Origin: Chromera velia
Lineage: Eukaryota > Sar > Chromeraceae
Assembly: GCA_018398765.1 (NCBI GenBank)
Contig: JAHBMJ010004093.1
Location: 57,092 to 78,026 of the forward strand
Reading direction: 5' to 3'
Length of the DNA stretch: 20,935 bases
Shown here: piece after piece, positions 5,925 through 15,424 of the stretch
Numbering within the stretch: the stretch's first letter is position 1
Layout of the letters: each line of letters starts with the position of its first letter
Position numbers and translations under genes: made by a program
The notes under the pieces: model-generated
What the model saw: only the letters and a program-made list of their open reading frames with translations
Databases searched by the model: none
What the model was told of the DNA's origin: nothing

Positions 5925-7837
5925 TCAACCACGACGAGCCGGAGACGCTGCATGGCTTTTCCTGCTGCCGTCTCCCCGCCCGTACATTTCCTCCCCCATC
6001 TTTCCTCCCCCTCCCCGCTCCCCTCCAGATCCAGAGGCCCCCCGCGTGAGAAGCCCTTGGGGGGCGGTCTGCGTTGCTGCGGGAGACGCGTCTGCGCTAT
6101 CGAAAGGTGAGATCTCTCCCTGTAGCAGCGGGGGTACTCGTGTTGAGGAGGCCGAGGTTGAAGGCTGTTGGGCGGGCCGGCCTGTGGTCGCAGCGGAGGA
6201 AGAGGAGGCGAAGATGTCCTGCACAACCAAACCTCGGGAGGGGGTGTAGTCCCGACCTTCCGAGCTAACAGGACTACCATGGGCAGGGGATAGGATACGG
6301 TCGTCCCCTTTCACTTTTGGGGTCTTCACTGCTTCCATCCTGATCCGCCCAAAACTCCCCCCACTCCCTCTGCTATCTCTGCTGGCTGAATGCCCAACAG
6401 GGGACACCCCACCTCCTGAAGCCTTCTGCACTTTCAATGAGGGAGGCGAGGCACTCCCTCTGTTCTCTGCCGTCTCCGAAGACAAAGAGGGAAACCTGTT
6501 CTCTCTCCCTGTCGTTGTGCCTCCCCGCGATCTGACGGAGTCGATGGTCTCGTCACACACGGGACTGGCACCCCTGTCACCCATCACACGTCCTTGTTGG
6601 ATGTTTGAATGTACTGCGTGCACCCCCATTCTATCCCCCTTCCCGGTGCTTCCCTGAGACGGCAAAGGGACGGAGACGTTCAATTTTGTGCGCTCTGCCA
6701 TTTTCTTTTCAAGTTCAAAGTTCTCTTCTTCCTCTTCCCCTGTGAAGCAAGCATCTTCAGGGAGGGTGAAAGAAGTTCGGCCTGAGTCAATGAACCTTCC
6801 CCTGCTGGCTGCTCTGCCCTGCTCTACCCCCGGCGAGTGTCCATGGGGCTCTCCCGTATTTATAGACTCTCCCTCTGCAGGGATGCAATTCCCCACCCAG
6901 CCTCCCTTGAACGCCTGTTCCTGCAACGTCTCCTTCATCAGACAGGAGGTCAACAGCTCCCCCCCTGACTTGGAAGTCTCAGTTCTCTTCGGACTCGCCC
7001 CAGCACTCCCATTTCCTGACCCTGCCGCACCCCCCCCCTCTCCAGCGGTCGGAAGCAGAGATCCGTTCCTTGCTGCAACCCCCCGCTGGGAGTTGTTGGC
7101 GGCTGCCGAGTCGACAGGCGCAACGAAGGCAGCCACGACGGTGATGTCGTCGGGCTTTCCCCCCATCAGCACGCGGCCAGTCGACTGCTCAAGCTCGTGG
7201 GAGAAAGAAGTGCGCCAGTCAACGCGAGAGGGCCAACCGGGAGTCTGTAGGGAGGGGGAGGGAAGCAGAGGGAAGCGGTGAATGAGATTTGGCATAAAAT
7301 CCACGACAAGAGTGAACGAAAAGAGACCAGAATTTCCGAAGAACATTCCACACAGGGGGCAACACAGCAACAGGAAAGGAGAAAAAAGGGCAGACCACCT
7401 TCTCTTGCTTTCTGTCGCACATCTACTAGCTCAATCACTGACTGACCATGAGTGAGGTGTCGTTTTTGGAATCTGCGTGGGGGTCGAAGGGGCGATTGCA
7501 TCCCCATTTCCAGGCCTCCTGCAAGCATGGATGCGGTGTCAGTCAATGCAGAGAGAGGAGAGAGAGGACACAGAATGATAGACATGAGTATGAAAGAGAA
7601 AAGAAAGATATAGACCTCCCGATTACCCTTACCCAACGGGAGTTCACGCGGCACACGGACAGACGAATGGAGACAAACAAACCTACAGGGATCCCCAGAC
7701 GCAAAGGCCTTGTCAGTCAAAATTGAATCACATTGTTGGAAGAGCCAGAACACATTATTCACTGATCTTCCAAAGGACATCCCTTCTTTTTTTCTTCTCA
7801 AAACAATGAAGGAAATGCTCATAACTTCCCATGCACA

Positions 7838-7868
<31 letters not shown>

Positions 7869-9588
7869 CGACTGACACTCCAGAGTTCCCTGCTGAGAGC
7901 TTCCGGAGAGAGGGAGGGCATCTGAGGGTCCCCCCCCGCCTCATTCCTTCTCCACGTTGCTCCCTTGGCCTCTGCCGTCTTCACTGCCCTGTTCACTGCT
8001 GCTTCCAGCTGGGCTCCCGAGAGGTTATCATCGACTCCGTCTGTGTGGGCAAGGAGAATGTCCCCGTGGGCAAGCACGCAGGCCTGCTTGTCTGCGCGTG
8101 CGTCAATGTGGACTCTCAGAGTCTGCTCCCATCGGACCTGTAGGAAGGGCACGAAGGGGGGCACTCACTTATTGATACATTCATATGTATCTGTATATTC
8201 TGTGACTCGAATTCTCGGACATATAGAGGGGAGGGGGGAGAAAGCAGTAAAACGCTGAGCAGCGCCCCACTCTGAAGCACATGTGTTCATTCATTCCACC
8301 CTCTTCTGTCTGTAGCTTGCCCCTCGCTCTCCCTGCCTACCTGCTGCTCTCTGGCCTCGGGTCCTGCCGCGGCTGCTGGGCCCTGCGCTCTGCTGGCAGT
8401 CATCACCTGCAGATTTCAGACATTATGAGTGAGGGCATCGGGTGGTCAGGAAGGCAGTCTGTTCATATTCATGAGAGAGAAGGGAGATCGCCTAGCAAGA
8501 GGCTTGCAGACGGGAGTCAGATAGGCTTCCGTCAGGACAGAGGAGCGACGATGCGTGGAGACGGACAGACAGAACTGGCGAATCGCTCCAACGCCCAAAG
8601 GGAAGAGGGGAACCTTGGAAGGAAAGCAGATGAAAAGAAAAAAAGGAAATATCCGCATGCATGGAGAGGAGTCCACGTTTCAGGGAGAGACCCCTCCTCC
8701 CCCTCCCCCTTTCCCCGTGTAAAATTCATTCATCAATGTCCTCATGCACTCCCCCCTTCCCTCCCCTACCGACCTGATATGGCATGTTGAACTGTATGCA
8801 AGACTCTCTGGATGCGAAGATGGTTCTGTACTCCCCCCTGTTTCCCTTCCTGAGCACCTTCCACCCCGAGTCCCCCAGATTGCACGCGTACAGTGTGTCG
8901 CCTGCAGATTGAGGACACGCACATCGCACAGAGGAGTGAAGGTCGTTGATGTGTGTCAGATAGCGTTTGTTGCACTTTCTCGGTCCGTCTATCTGAGAGA
9001 ACTGGGGTATATAGAGTGTTGAGTACGGATAGCAAGACACGGGAGGATCTAGGCTGCCTAGACAATGGAGGAGTCTCTTAGTAGTTGTCACTGTTTCGTT
9101 CTATTGTGCGAAAACGCAATTAAAAGGAGTCGAAGGCCGACCTTGAATTGCGACAAGCACACAGGTGGCTGCACCACGACTCTCGCAGTCACAGGCAGAC
9201 TCCCACCTGCAAGCAGTCCGGAGGAAACGACACGTGGGGCACCCACTCAGATGAGGTCCTCGCAAAGGTCAGGCAAATTCATGCAAGCAACACCACAATG
9301 GAAATCAACTTACAGAATGATAGGAAGGTTTCTCGGGTCTGTGTCGGGTTCGTGAATCTTCTCCATACATCGCAAAGCAAGTTCCTTTGGGAGAAGAGAG
9401 GGGTCCACACCGTAGAGCTGTCTCATAGACCCGACACCGTCGGACACGCACACCCCCTTCCACGAGCCCACCCAGGCGTCCTCGTTGCACTCTATTCCTT
9501 CCAGAAGCTGACGGGCTGGGAGTTTGTGGGGGTGGGTCTTGGAGGTCCCCCCCACAACGAAACAGAGCTCCGAGCTTTTTGAGCTCAT
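5925..9588 (-). CDS. PPTC7: PP2C-family Ser/Thr phosphatase of the PPTC7/Ptc7 type, seven exons
   Basis: Exons on the minus strand are 9588-9314, 9206-9142, 8901-8774, 8406-8341, 8137-about 7940, 7518-7447 and 7244-5925, giving about 707 residues. Phases agree at the junctions (CT+G, G+GC, then phase 0). Motifs in order are: ECNEDAWV (about 33-40) and VCVSDGVGSMRQLYGVDPS (about 47-65), the first metal-binding region; GAATCVLVAI (about 103-112); YACNLGDSGWKVLR (about 118-131); FNMPYQ (about 151-156); GDILLAHTDGVDDNL (about 203-217); and RPFDPHADSKN (about 253-263). GGKPDDITVVAAFV (about 295-308) carries the last metal-binding aspartates. The key aspartates are present, so an active Mn/Mg-dependent phosphatase is expected. 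Animal and yeast relatives are mitochondrial. Here, starting at the ATG at 9588-9586, no targeting peptide is evident, although the frame is open upstream to a TAG at about 9691 and a further 5' exon is possible. About 400 low-complexity Ser/Gly/Pro-rich residues follow the domain. Weak points are the start and the donor of exon 5 (GC at 7939-7938). Confidence 0.85.
7837..7868. repeat. (AAAG)n microsatellite in a phosphatase intron
   Basis: About eight AAAG units lie inside the intron between the HTDGVDDN exon and the RPFDPH exon. An adjacent CCCCCCC run lies just inside the possible GC donor of that intron. Confidence 0.9.
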
Positions 9589-10095
9589 ACTTTCCTCTCG
9601 GCTCTGGTTCACTTCAAGTTCAGATCGGCTGTCCGGGGCGTTGTTCAGGTGAGAGTGACGGCATGCAGCGACCGACTCTCCCTATACAGACTGGAGGCGT
9701 TTCATGAACACGTTCAGAAAGACAATTCCGGCTCTCTGCATGCACACAACTTCTCTGTCACTAGCGAGTACGCATGAGTCTTGCAGCTAAAAGTCTGGGA
9801 AATGAACTTGGAGGCGACTTCGCGTGAGTCGTGACACATGCAGACAAATTAAGGTCTGACGTTTGCCCCGGCGGCCGTGCCGGGGGGGCCGGCCGGCCCC
9901 CGGCCGCCCCCCGTTGCCTGGCCCGCCACGCGCGCAATGCTTGCACAGAAGACGCGCCGCGGCATTCTTGGTCCGCATCATTGTTCGTGTTCCGATCGAC
10001 GATCTATGTAGTCTTGGCTGGGGAGTATTAATATATATACTGGAGCCCCGTCAAACACCTTAATTGGAAGAATGCTGAAGCGTGATTAATGAATC
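9589..10095. promoter_or_regulatory. Probable bidirectional promoter region with a GC-rich palindromic island
   Basis: This stretch separates the minus-strand phosphatase start from the plus-strand ATG at 10096, so the genes diverge. About 9866-9960 is extremely GC-rich and contains an 18-bp perfect palindrome at 9884-9901. A near-palindromic AT element lies at about 10025-10042. Two GCATGC sites occur at 9661 and 9738. An inverted pair, AATTAAGGT at 9847-9855 and ACCTTAATT at 10057-10065, brackets the island. A promoter role is inferred from position and composition. Part of the left side may be a further 5' exon of the phosphatase gene. Confidence 0.4.
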
Positions 10096-11019
10096 ATGGC
10101 TGTTCTCCCCCGCAGAGCTGGAGGTCGTGTTATCTCCTTCGTGTGGAATGAGCTTCGACGGGTGCGTTTGGTTTTCCGTCTCCTTGTATCGTCCGTCTCC
10201 GGTTGGGTTCCCTCCTCTTCCTCTTCCTCTTCTTGGAGACGGAACAAAATTATTCTCTCGCTCGTGATAATTACACCAGGATCTGAACTGTGGAAGCTCG
10301 CCCTTCGCTTTCTCTTTGAGGAATCTTCTGTCCTCGAATCGGTCGGTGGAAACTGCTGGGAGAGACGGGATGCATGTCAAACAGAAGTTCTGTCACTCCG
10401 CTACATGCACACATCAAGCGACACGGTCGAAAGCTTTGTGCACTCCTGCAAGGCTGTCATCATTGAGTCCAGACTGTACACTTCACTGGACTGTGCTGTG
10501 AGAATATTCTGCAGGTATGTGACCGCGTTGAAGACTGGATTCGTTCTCGGTCCCTTCCCGTCTCCTTTCCCAGTCTTTCCTGTAAGGGATTTGCAGAGAT
10601 CACCAAAGAGGAGACGGAGAGACTGGAGAAACTCACTGACCAACTTGTCAAAGCAGACGGTAAGCGTAGCCGTACCCCCTAACTTGGCCTATCTGTTGTG
10701 GCTTCTTCTGGGATGACGGAATTCACAAGGAGACTCCACACCTGAAGATCTTTCTGAAGTTCGATCTCTTTTTCCTTCTCTTCCTCAGACTCTATTGCCC
10801 GTCCCTTTCCCCAGTCATGCAGAGTGGCTCTTCAAAGATGCATGGGTAAAGGGCACCACAGATGCGTCCCGAACCGAAGGGCCATTAATCGTTCTTTCTT
10901 TCTCTCCATATCTTTCTGCAGCATCAATATGCGGTCTGGGCATGTTTTGCGTGCTCTGTCTGAAGGTCAAGTTTCGGGGTGTGCTCACTCTCCTTGGCAT
11001 GAGGTCCGTTGAAGTCTGA
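10096..11019 (+). CDS. Hypothetical multi-exon protein, cysteine-containing, about 219 residues
   Basis: The proposed exons are 10096-10514, 10574-10659, 10789-10845 and 10922-11019. The donors are GTATGT, GTAAGC and GTAAAG; the acceptors end in CCCAG, CTCAG and TGCAG. Phases agree at all three junctions (AG+T, G+AC, G+CA). The N-terminus (MAVLPRRAGGRVISFVWNEL) is basic and hydrophobic and could be a mitochondrial or membrane-anchor sequence. A charged segment, ITKEETERLEKLTDQLVKAD, is the most clearly coding part. Next comes a cysteine-containing stretch (SCRVALQRCM), then a hydrophobic C-terminus. I do not recognise the family. The first exon is uncertain, because the opposite strand is also open there. 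The last exon could instead splice at GTCAAG and continue into the downstream gene. Confidence 0.4.
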
Positions 11020-13045: not shown

Positions 13046-13335
13046 GAGTTTTTTCAAATTGACATGCATACTAGCAGGCGTAGGAAAAAGTAAGGCTAAT
13101 ACTAGGGCAAAGCATGCAATAAAATATAATAAGGCAACACTTCATAGACCATGGAAAAAATCTAGAACTATCCATGACATTGATGTTATGCGATGCGAAT
13201 AATGCCATGGTATGCATTGCTGGCATTTTTTAAACATACATTATAGTGCAAGTGGGAAACTTGAATTAAATGAAAAATTATTCCCCTATATCATAAGCTA
13301 TATATGCGTTCCTGTACTAAACTACACATTAAACT
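13046..13335. other. AT-rich non-coding flank of the transposon cluster
   Basis: Composition becomes AT-rich immediately after the stop at 13045. No ORF or domain is seen. The stretch runs to the target-site duplication of the first element and may be part of an older insertion. Confidence 0.4.
13328..13335. repeat. Target-site duplication of element 1, left copy
   Basis: ATTAAACT abuts the left terminus; the identical right copy is at 14118-14125. Confidence 0.85.
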
Positions 13336-14117
13336 CTAGGGGTGGTCTTTAGATAGATTTTCTTTTAGTTTAGATTTTTTACCCCCTCCAAACTAATATA
13401 TTAATCTATCTAAAAAAAAAAAAAAATATAAAAAATCTATGGTGAAAATTTATTAACGGCCTAAGCGTCGGCCTAGGCATCGGCCTTTCGTGAGACAATC
13501 AGCCTCAATTCTGATATATAACCTAGTGGGATCCTAGTGGGGCCATATTGGTGGATAGCAGGGTGGACAGATCGAATCAGGTCGATCAGAACTTCATAGG
13601 TAGCTTAGTACTGTAGCTAAAGAGTAGTGTCAGTCAAGTACTAAGGACAATCACCAAACGAACACAACGATCATACTCTTTAGGTGACAGGCAGTGCACG
13701 GGCAAGCCGGATAGTAGACCTGAACTGAGGTGGTTACGAAAAACATATAGGCCAGATGTTAGGAACAAACTTTAAGTCAATGCCCCCCCCTTTCTAGGGT
13801 GGTTCACAATAAATTCAACGCTTCAGCCCGGGAGCAGCTGAATTTTAACGTTCGCCGGCAGTCGGCGGCAGACAAGGAGTTGGGTGTGCTCTTTATCCTC
13901 GTTTATCGCAGCGGAGCATTTCCGTTCTCCCTCTGCTAATCCCTCTGATGCGCCTGCAGATCTGCAAGCTCTGCTTAAAGATCTTCGTCGCCTTGCTGGA
14001 AGGTGGGCCAGGGAGGAGTTGCCCCGTTTATGCCCCGTTTAGATTAGTTAGATTAATTAGATAAATTTATTTTTTTGAAGATCTAATATAAATAATCTAT
14101 CTAGCAACCACCCCTAG
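13336..14117. mobile_element. Non-autonomous hAT-like DNA transposon, 782 bp (element 1)
   Basis: The left terminus CTAGGGGTGGT (13336) and right terminus ACCACCCCTAG (to 14117) are inverted copies. The match extends over about 24 bases, 21 identical, including TAGATAGATT. An identical 8-bp direct repeat, ATTAAACT, flanks the element at 13328-13335 and 14118-14125. An 8-bp duplication with short inverted termini fits the hAT superfamily. The ends are AT-rich, and the centre includes a 12-bp CGGCCTARGCRT tandem repeat (13457-13492). A GC-rich core (about 13826-14031) follows. No transposase was found, so mobilisation in trans is inferred. Confidence 0.85.
13842..14042 (+). pseudogene. GC-rich open segment inside element 1, possible captured gene fragment
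   Basis: A 66-codon open frame without a start codon ends at TAG 14040-14042. Its 3' half reads like protein: ADLQALLKDLRRLAGRW followed by AREELPRL. Its composition is far more GC-rich than the rest of the transposon. It could be host coding sequence captured by the element, or a transposase-derived remnant. No family was recognised, so this is a weak call. Confidence 0.3.
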
Positions 14118-14125
14118 ATTAAACT
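14118..14125. repeat. Target-site duplication of element 1, right copy
   Basis: ATTAAACT directly follows the right terminus of element 1. Confidence 0.85.
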
Positions 14126-14187
14126 ATATAAAGAACTCTAAGCTAACTTAAGACTACGCCTAGGTTCTAGCCTAGGTTCCAGGTTTA

Positions 14188-14195
14188 TCCCGATG
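14188..14195. repeat. Target-site duplication of element 2, left copy
   Basis: TCCCGATG abuts the left terminus; the identical right copy is at 15009-15016. Confidence 0.85.
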
Positions 14196-15008
14196 CAAAG
14201 GTGTTTAATCACGGAATATATTTATTCATTAGTTACTCACTTCAAAAGTAACATATTCAAGAATATATTCAGGAATATATTCCCTAATAAATTTGATTTC
14301 TTCTGTTTTCTTTTTGCAGTTTTGAAGGTGAGTCTAAAGATTGGACGTCCCTCTACTGCTTTTGTATGGCTATCGTTCCGCAAGAATTGCATGTATACGA
14401 TTCTACAGGTTTGCCAAGCGGTGGCTGAACTGCTTTAAAGAAGTCTCGTACGTCCACTTAACTCATTTTCAAACTATAGAGTTAATCATCTGAACATGTC
14501 AGGCCTCAGTTATCTGGTATGATATGGCTTGCTGTAACTTTAAGTTTATATCTTACTTTGTATTTGAAACTCATGTATGGAGACCCGATTTTTTATATAA
14601 CATGTACAATCGGATGTTCGGCTCCAAATGCATATACCGATGGCCGCGGCTAACTAGGGCCGTGGCCGCTAGTATAGATGCGAGCGCTTGATCGATCGTA
14701 CATGCATGTGCGTAGGCCGCGCCGCGTGGCTGGCCCGCGGCCCGCCAGGCCTGGGCTGCAGGGGCCGGGCCATGCATGCATACATATATAGTACGTGCGT
14801 CTTGCACTGGACGTGTACAAACCTCTAGGCTACTCCCAAAACATTTGTTTTTATAACATAAAAAAAACCCTGCATCATTAGAATGACCAAAGGTATTAAA
14901 GACTAGTAAGAATCGGACTTTAGCTAATTAATCACTTTATTCAATCACATTCAATCACTTCATAAGATAATTAAATATATTCTAATCAGAAGCGACTAAA
15001 CACCTTTG
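14196..15008. mobile_element. Non-autonomous hAT-like DNA transposon, 813 bp (element 2)
   Basis: The termini CAAAGGTGTTTA (14196) and TAAACACCTTTG (to 15008) are perfect 12-bp inverted repeats, with weaker similarity further in (both ends carry GAATATATTTA). The identical 8-bp direct repeat TCCCGATG flanks the element at 14188-14195 and 15009-15016. The ends are AT-rich. The middle (about 14640-14775) is a GC-rich island with an imperfect hairpin (GGCCGCGGC...GCCGTGGCC) and a GCATGC site. No transposase ORF was found. The termini differ from those of element 1, so it belongs to a separate family. Confidence 0.85.
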
Positions 15009-15016
15009 TCCCGATG
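15009..15016. repeat. Target-site duplication of element 2, right copy
   Basis: TCCCGATG directly follows the right terminus of element 2. Confidence 0.85.
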
Positions 15017-15168
15017 TCTATTAAGACTCCACTACCGTCGGTCTACTGGGGGACTTAGTAATCTAGCCGGGAAACGGCTTGCACCGCCATCATGTTAGCT
15101 AGTATGTTAGCGCATAGTAGATATTTGACATATTTCATATAATTTTTCACTTTTTTTTTCCTATACTA

Positions 15169-15176
15169 GTTTCCAT
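15169..15176. repeat. Target-site duplication of element 3, left copy
   Basis: GTTTCCAT; the identical right copy is at 15417-15424. Confidence 0.8.
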
Positions 15177-15416
15177 CTAAGCGCCGGCTAGAGAGAAAAA
15201 AAAAAAAAGATCTCCCAAAACCCTTTACTTTTTTTCTTTTTTTTTTCTGTATCAGTCAAACAACTGTTGTTCAAGTGTTGTACAAGTGTTGTTTGTATGT
15301 TGCACAACTGTTGCTAAGTGTTGTTCAGGGTTGAAAAGTAAAAAAAAAAGAAAAAAAAAAGATCTCCTCAAATCGCTTATTTTTTTTCTTTTTTTTTTTC
15401 TCTAGCCGGCGCCTAG
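15177..15416. mobile_element. 240-bp MITE with 8-bp target duplication (element 3)
   Basis: CTAAGCGCCGGCTAGAG at the left end and the inverted CTAGGCGCCGGCTAGAG at the right end differ at one base. The identical 8-bp direct repeat GTTTCCAT flanks it at 15169-15176 and 15417-15424. Inside, an approximately 55-bp A-run / AGATCTCC / T-run module is present twice in direct orientation (about 15190-15247 and 15343-15402). The two modules flank a centre with repeated GTTGT-CAAGTGTTGT-like units. There is no coding capacity. The size, structure and 8-bp duplication fit a hAT-type miniature element. Confidence 0.85.
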
Positions 15417-15424
15417 GTTTCCAT
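15417..15424. repeat. Target-site duplication of element 3, right copy
   Basis: GTTTCCAT immediately follows the right terminus of element 3. Confidence 0.8.

Follow-up and report, generated by a model that had tools for sequence, protein, structure and literature searches.

Why do three transposable elements lie side by side within 2.1 kb of the genome of Chromera velia, each framed by a perfect 8-bp duplication? We addressed this question in a window of 20,935 nucleotides, by which we mean the whole stretch of DNA analysed (C3491:57092-78026 of a 177.8-Mb, 4040-contig assembly). Three decayed or miniature cut-and-paste DNA transposons, mutually unrelated and here called E1, E2 and E3, adjoin one another in it. 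We consider it very probable that they represent three non-autonomous families that entered an element-rich nuclear genome by independent cut-and-paste insertions, each with an 8-bp staggered target cut. The insertions would have landed in one stretch that tolerates them. E2 would have arisen by internal deletion from a hAT element, longer relatives of which bear decayed BED-finger transposase genes, and E1 and E3 would be small hAT-like elements mobilised by a transposase acting in trans.

Structure of the cluster

The features of the cluster, in window coordinates, are as follows.

13328..13335, left 8-bp target duplication of E1 (ATTAAACT), read directly
13336..14117, plus strand, E1, a 782-bp non-autonomous element with tips CTAGGGGTGGT and 24-bp inverted tips, read directly and with relatives in the assembly
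14118..14125, right 8-bp target duplication of E1 (ATTAAACT), read directly
14188..14195, left 8-bp target duplication of E2 (TCCCGATG), read directly
14196..15008, plus strand, E2, most likely an 813-bp hAT deletion derivative, with tips CAAAGGTGTTTA, from direct reading and genome relatives
14292..14481, minus strand, what is left of the BED-zinc-finger frame of the E2-family transposase, interrupted by a frame change, from tblastn of the frame of a long relative (L019)
15009..15016, right 8-bp target duplication of E2 (TCCCGATG), read directly
15169..15176, left 8-bp target duplication of E3 (GTTTCCAT), read directly
15177..15416, plus strand, E3, a 240-bp miniature element with tips CTARGCGCCGGCTAGAG, foldable as a long hairpin, from direct reading, copies and fold
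15417..15424, right 8-bp target duplication of E3 (GTTTCCAT), read directly

Direct reading bears out, base for base, the original prediction of three elements with perfect 8-bp duplications, and the span given for them (13328-15424) is exact. The inverted tips of E1 match at 21 of 24 positions, those of E2 are identical over their first 12 bases, and the 32-nt arms of E3 are 91% complementary. Spacers of 62 bp (E1/E2) and 152 bp (E2/E3) separate neighbouring duplications. Because no element is nested within another, the order of arrival is not readable. Folded as single-stranded DNA, the E3 hairpin reaches -52.7 kcal/mol versus -24.9 for shuffles (z -6.9), and none of 200 shuffles folds equally well. 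All three have the features of MITEs: E3 is 240 bp long with about 215 tip pairs, E1 (782 bp) and E2 (813 bp) have tens of tips, and none is coding.

Relatives elsewhere in the genome

In an assembly of 4040 contigs with simple repeats and N runs, tip pairs and matching 8-mers might be chance or assembly artefacts. A strict scan, requiring an exact 8-bp repeat and 14-nt tips with at most 2 mismatches and the first three bases equal, finds E2 and E3 in the window and gives no match on 20 dinucleotide shuffles of it. This rule passes over E1, which has 3 mismatches in its 14 tip bases, and a differently loosened rule recovers E1 and E2 and leaves out E3, the fourth tip base of which differs. Stronger evidence against chance than these shuffles comes from the many independent copies of all three families on different contigs, with different 8-mers. 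These copies refute an origin by chance or artefact, which we consider next to impossible.

Relatives of the three elements number dozens to hundreds in the same genome. The 17-base tip of E3 occurs, with at most 2 mismatches, at 215 and 216 places in the assembly versus 6 and 6 for the reversed control; the right tip of E2 occurs at 71 and 63 places versus 3 and 6; and the tip of E1 occurs at 15 and 26 places, a few of which are right tips, versus 0 and 0. These are counts of tips, not of whole elements.

We examined 60 copies with both tips (24 of E1, 22 of E2 and 14 of E3), measuring the duplication as the longest exact match between the end of the left flank and the start of the right flank at lengths from 5 to 12 bp. 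An exact 8-bp duplication flanks 40 of the 60, and all 40 of these 8-mers are distinct from one another. In E2, 19 copies have exact 8-bp duplications, 2 have one mismatch and 1 has no clear duplication; in E3 the corresponding numbers are 11, 1 and 2. Among the E1 copies, 10 have exact 8-bp duplications, 7 differ by a single mismatch over 8 bp (a T run in one case), 2 have exact 9-bp duplications and 5 have no clear duplication. The 9-bp repeats flank the copies at L074:197-1488 and L084:136-649, and the 8-bp pair at the former locus belongs to a different element nested inside the E1 copy. All three families are thus multicopy, with other copies flanked by 8-mers of their own, and the prediction withstands the outcome named as refuting it, namely a lack of other copies or flanks without 8-bp duplications. 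The claim that the three are distinct non-autonomous families, spread to different places by transposition, is upheld.

The E2 sample comprises the window and the 21 of 31 other contigs among the matches listed on which both tips could be paired; a tip scan found no plausible full E2 tip pair in the other ten loci. For E1, 29 of the 36 other contigs with matches were read along with the window, and the 24 two-tipped copies remain after dropping a duplicate (L058) and five loci (L055, L056, L061, L078 and L082) with no second tip in the stretch read. The duplicate shares 801 identical bases, including the E1 copy, with L057 (contigs C807 and C2170), and is either an assembly duplicate or a recent segmental copy. 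The E3 sample was drawn from eight loci among the matches listed and five other places including the window, out of about 215 copies genome-wide; the ends of one copy (L038) were placed by hand. No empty site turned up in the assembly, where the joined flanks and spacers have no match outside the contig of the window.

Age of the insertions

The original prediction took the intact duplications as a sign of fairly recent activity. The three intact 8-mer pairs date the insertions only weakly, because they offer 24 compared sites. Copy identities are more telling for some of the families. The E3 of the window is 97.9% identical to the majority of 12 copies, and nine of those 12 are 96-99% identical to the family majority, the other three lying at 78.5, 87.6 and 89.5%. 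E2 copies elsewhere are up to 99.5% alike between contigs. E3 thus looks fairly young, and fairly recent activity, which may extend to the present, is plausible for E3 and for other lineages of E2. The identities give no such indication for E1 or for the E2 of the window. The latter is, to judge by its sequence, a diverged lineage: among the matches listed it is 92.7% identical to its nearest relative (L016), about 75-79% identical to other relatives over long matches and 85-87% identical over three partial ones. The best-scoring match of E1 elsewhere reaches 85% over 318 bp, and shorter stretches of the tip region reach up to 96%.

E2 and the hAT superfamily

E2 copies that have both tips and near-matching flanks range from 774 to 3455 bp in length. 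In one of them (L020) about 1.07 kb lies between the parts that match bases 1-98 and 97-813 of the window E2, and because of this extra interior the window E2 looks like an internal-deletion derivative. Long relatives encode a BED zinc finger (PF02892) that passes the Pfam cut-off (E=1.2e-5 in L019 and 2e-5 in L051), and the finger appears again in a 293-aa frame (E=3.9e-5) inside a 2159-bp copy with a perfect duplication (L021). It is of the CCHC type, and is followed by a stretch that resembles, by eye, the first half of the hAT RNase-H core. The minus strand of the window E2 keeps the start of this frame, as tblastn with the L019 frame matches 14481-14368 (94.7%) and 14363-14292 (79.2%).

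Reading the E2-family transposase by eye, we see the hAT-like stretches WDHW, TASNM, CxxH, RW and APVES-FS. Later parts of the protein, with the TASNM, CxxH and RW stretches and the C end, lie in a relative on contig C2617, and no E2 tips were seen in the stretch of that contig that was read. Its dimerisation region (PF05699) scores 17 bits (E=0.0053) on joined frames of 798 aa, which is below the 21.4-bit cut-off, and 12.3 bits (E=0.15) on a single frame. The RNase-H part matches no Pfam hAT model, and comparisons of the transposase with PDB sequences gave either no match or only weak unrelated ones (E 0.39 and worse). The usual hAT tip reads pyrimidine-A-purine-N-G, and the tips of E2 have the A at position 2 and the G at position 5 at both ends, as in that consensus.

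Together these features make E2 most likely a hAT deletion derivative, and we place one element clearly (E2) and two probably (E1 and E3) in the hAT superfamily. The hAT identity proposed for all three elements is well supported for E2, on its BED finger, motifs and sub-threshold dimerisation region, and is inferred for E1 and E3. Long E2 copies carry decayed BED-finger transposase genes, and in the copies read no transposase gene could be tied to E1 or E3.

hAT elements are described as 2.5-5 kb long, with tips of 10-25 bp and 8-bp duplications (PMC3942097). All three elements of the cluster resemble the superfamily (the Ac, Buster and Tip groups, and Hermes) in their 8-bp target duplications and short inverted tips, and E2 resembles it further in a transposase with a BED finger, and possibly in the hAT-like motifs read by eye and the sub-threshold, dimerisation-like C end. 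However, that transposase is too distant from known hAT proteins for Pfam or PDB sequence matches outside the BED and dimerisation regions. Hermes has a CCHC BED finger and a target preference for nTnnnnAn (PMC10368747); the targets of E2 lean towards T2/A7 as well, but only weakly (45% in the symmetrised set of 19).

The elements can also be compared with hAT MITEs. The BuT2 MITEs of Drosophila are described as short, non-coding products of internal deletion that kept their tips and 8-bp duplications (PMC3942097). E1, E2 and E3 are like these and the mar elements of Drosophila (PMC3517528) in being short and non-coding with tips and duplications kept, E2 apparently by internal deletion. They differ from both in tips and sequence, and E3 differs further in its A/T runs and about 215 genome tip pairs.

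Affiliation of E1 and E3

The tips of E1 and E3 read CTAGG or CTAAG, with A at position 3 and G at position 5, and do not have the canonical A at position 2. E1 and E3 differ from the hAT superfamily in these tips and in the lack of a linked transposase. Our best guess, from the size of the duplication only, is that they are hAT elements; their CTAGG tips are atypical, and no transposase could be tied to them in the copies read. Elements of the P and Merlin superfamilies and some Mutator-like elements also make 8-bp duplications, and E1 and E3 might instead belong to one of these. Their CTAGG tips are unlike those of E2, two of the 24 E1 copies have exact 9-bp duplications, and no transposase linked to either family was found in the copies read. 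Yet the duplication is exactly 8 bp in 10 of the 24 E1 and 11 of the 14 E3 copies and 8 bp with one mismatch in 7 more E1 copies, the T run among them, and hAT dimerisation domains are present in the genome. We regard a non-hAT affiliation of E1 and E3 as rather unlikely.

Among the copies read, none carries a transposase with CTAGG tips. The two longest E1 tip pairs read (2.6 and 4.4 kb) were considered as autonomous candidates and rejected. In the 2.6-kb copy (L073) five frames gave no Pfam match at E<=0.1, and its flanks have 2 mismatches in 8; in the 4.4-kb pair (L078 and L104) the same was true of three frames, out of 10 of at least 80 aa on both strands, and its flanks agree at 6 of 8 positions. 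Elsewhere in the genome, 7 places have a PF05699 dimerisation domain that scores above the cut-off, and no CTAGG pair was found in the 4.1 to 6.3 kb around 6 of them. On contig C600, an E3 close to such a place was rejected as a transposase-linked copy, as it is an ordinary element of 246 bp with no matching duplication. On contig C2757 (L011), the PF05699 transposase frame lies within a 3194-bp inverted-end pair (7498-10691), beside the palindromic AACCGGTT.

Besides E1 and E3, the loci read contain five elements of four further CTAGG tip types, all with exact 8-bp duplications.

L074:371-1138
L028:3791-4017
L032:2842-3086
L038:592-1072
L025:1332-1845

Two of them (L028 and L038, tip CTAGGCGTATCACA) have a core in common with E3, 88% identical over 68 and 51 bp (E=4e-21 and 1e-15), and their tips diverge from those of E3 after seven bases. 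A common core despite different tips suggests that families have exchanged tips or that their tips have diverged. E1 and E3 could belong to a clan of small elements with 8-bp duplications that have the CTAGG tip start in common but not the rest of the tip. In this relative of Apicomplexa the driver of such a clan would be a transposase lineage not yet recognised, or hAT transposases of a lineage with a shifted tip; we think this improbable.

Insertion site and crowding

The original prediction explained the proximity of the elements by an insertion hot spot, or by an older element to which insertions are attracted. The three insertions within 2.1 kb are what such a reading would explain, and crowding recurs elsewhere: an intact E3 lies in 2 of the 31 other E2 loci (L016 and L035; 139 kb), where a hand calculation (about 215 E3 copies in 177.8 Mb) gives an expectation of about 0.17. 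A second E3 lies about 400 and 225 bp away in 2 of the 8 E3 loci (L040 and L043), with its own 8-mer, one of them with a mismatch. Relative to uniform density only, E3 is enriched both near E2 and near itself. However, a search at lengths up to 6 kb found no outer pair of tips and duplications around the cluster. The locus is single-copy in the assembly, which contains no second match to the joined flanks, so that the older element finds no support. The 40 target 8-mers have no strong common motif, and gene avoidance or local hopping fits the clustering equally well. We think it unlikely that the locus is a true hot spot, or an older element attracting hAT insertions through its sequence or chromatin, and prefer independent insertions into a tolerant, element-rich stretch.

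Crowding and nesting are usual around E2 copies, because 7 of the 31 other E2 loci hold further elements and there are nested cases besides. The strict scan of these loci (139,265 bases) gives 9 further elements with 8-bp duplications in those 7, and none in five shuffled sets. In L017 and L032, E2 is itself nested within other elements of this kind, the E1 copy in L074 hosts another, and in L038 an E3 lies inside a relative, with a duplication read by eye as TAGATGAC/TAGATAAC. On two contigs (L050 and L051:27-3481) a TAGTGACCATG-tipped element lies at the same place inside E2, with TACCTTAG on one side in each, and E2 may have moved while carrying it. The TAGTGACCATG tip also occurs at L017:3255-4544 with its own 8-mer. 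In L051 the TAGTGACCATG-tipped element holds a 205-aa frame that by eye resembles a zinc-finger hAT N end, with no Pfam match over the cut-off. In other words, the cluster is real but ordinary, as the same genome holds many relatives and other crowded or nested groups.

The published genome of Chromera velia (193.66 Mb, 5953 scaffolds) contains about 30 Mb of transposable elements, and the word hAT is absent from the main text of the paper, which gives its table of transposable elements in the supplement (PMC4501334). The assembly analysed here resembles that genome in simple-repeat content. Its alpha-tubulin (L105) scores highest against 7tnt and 7miz (928 bits; Toxoplasma), followed by 9r4x (904) and 6u42 (896; Chlamydomonas), which hints at an alga related to Apicomplexa. 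The psaA/psaB family is absent from the assembly, and its best actin-family match, an actin-related protein, is uninformative on this point. Within the portions of the literature returned by a search, we found no description of hAT or DNA transposon families like E1-E3 in Chromera, Apicomplexa or dinoflagellates; a search for hAT MITEs in algae found none, and the papers listed for the tip sequences as text look unrelated by title. Our analysis contributes three element families, of which one is clearly hAT, to the genome of a relative of Apicomplexa, and shows that parts of this genome are crowded with elements that have 8-bp duplications; otherwise this is routine transposon biology. Away from the cluster, a minus-strand frame of the window (7166-8164) contains a stretch that weakly resembles SpoIIE/PP2C (PF07228, E=0.14, below the cut-off), perhaps an exon of a PP2C-type phosphatase.
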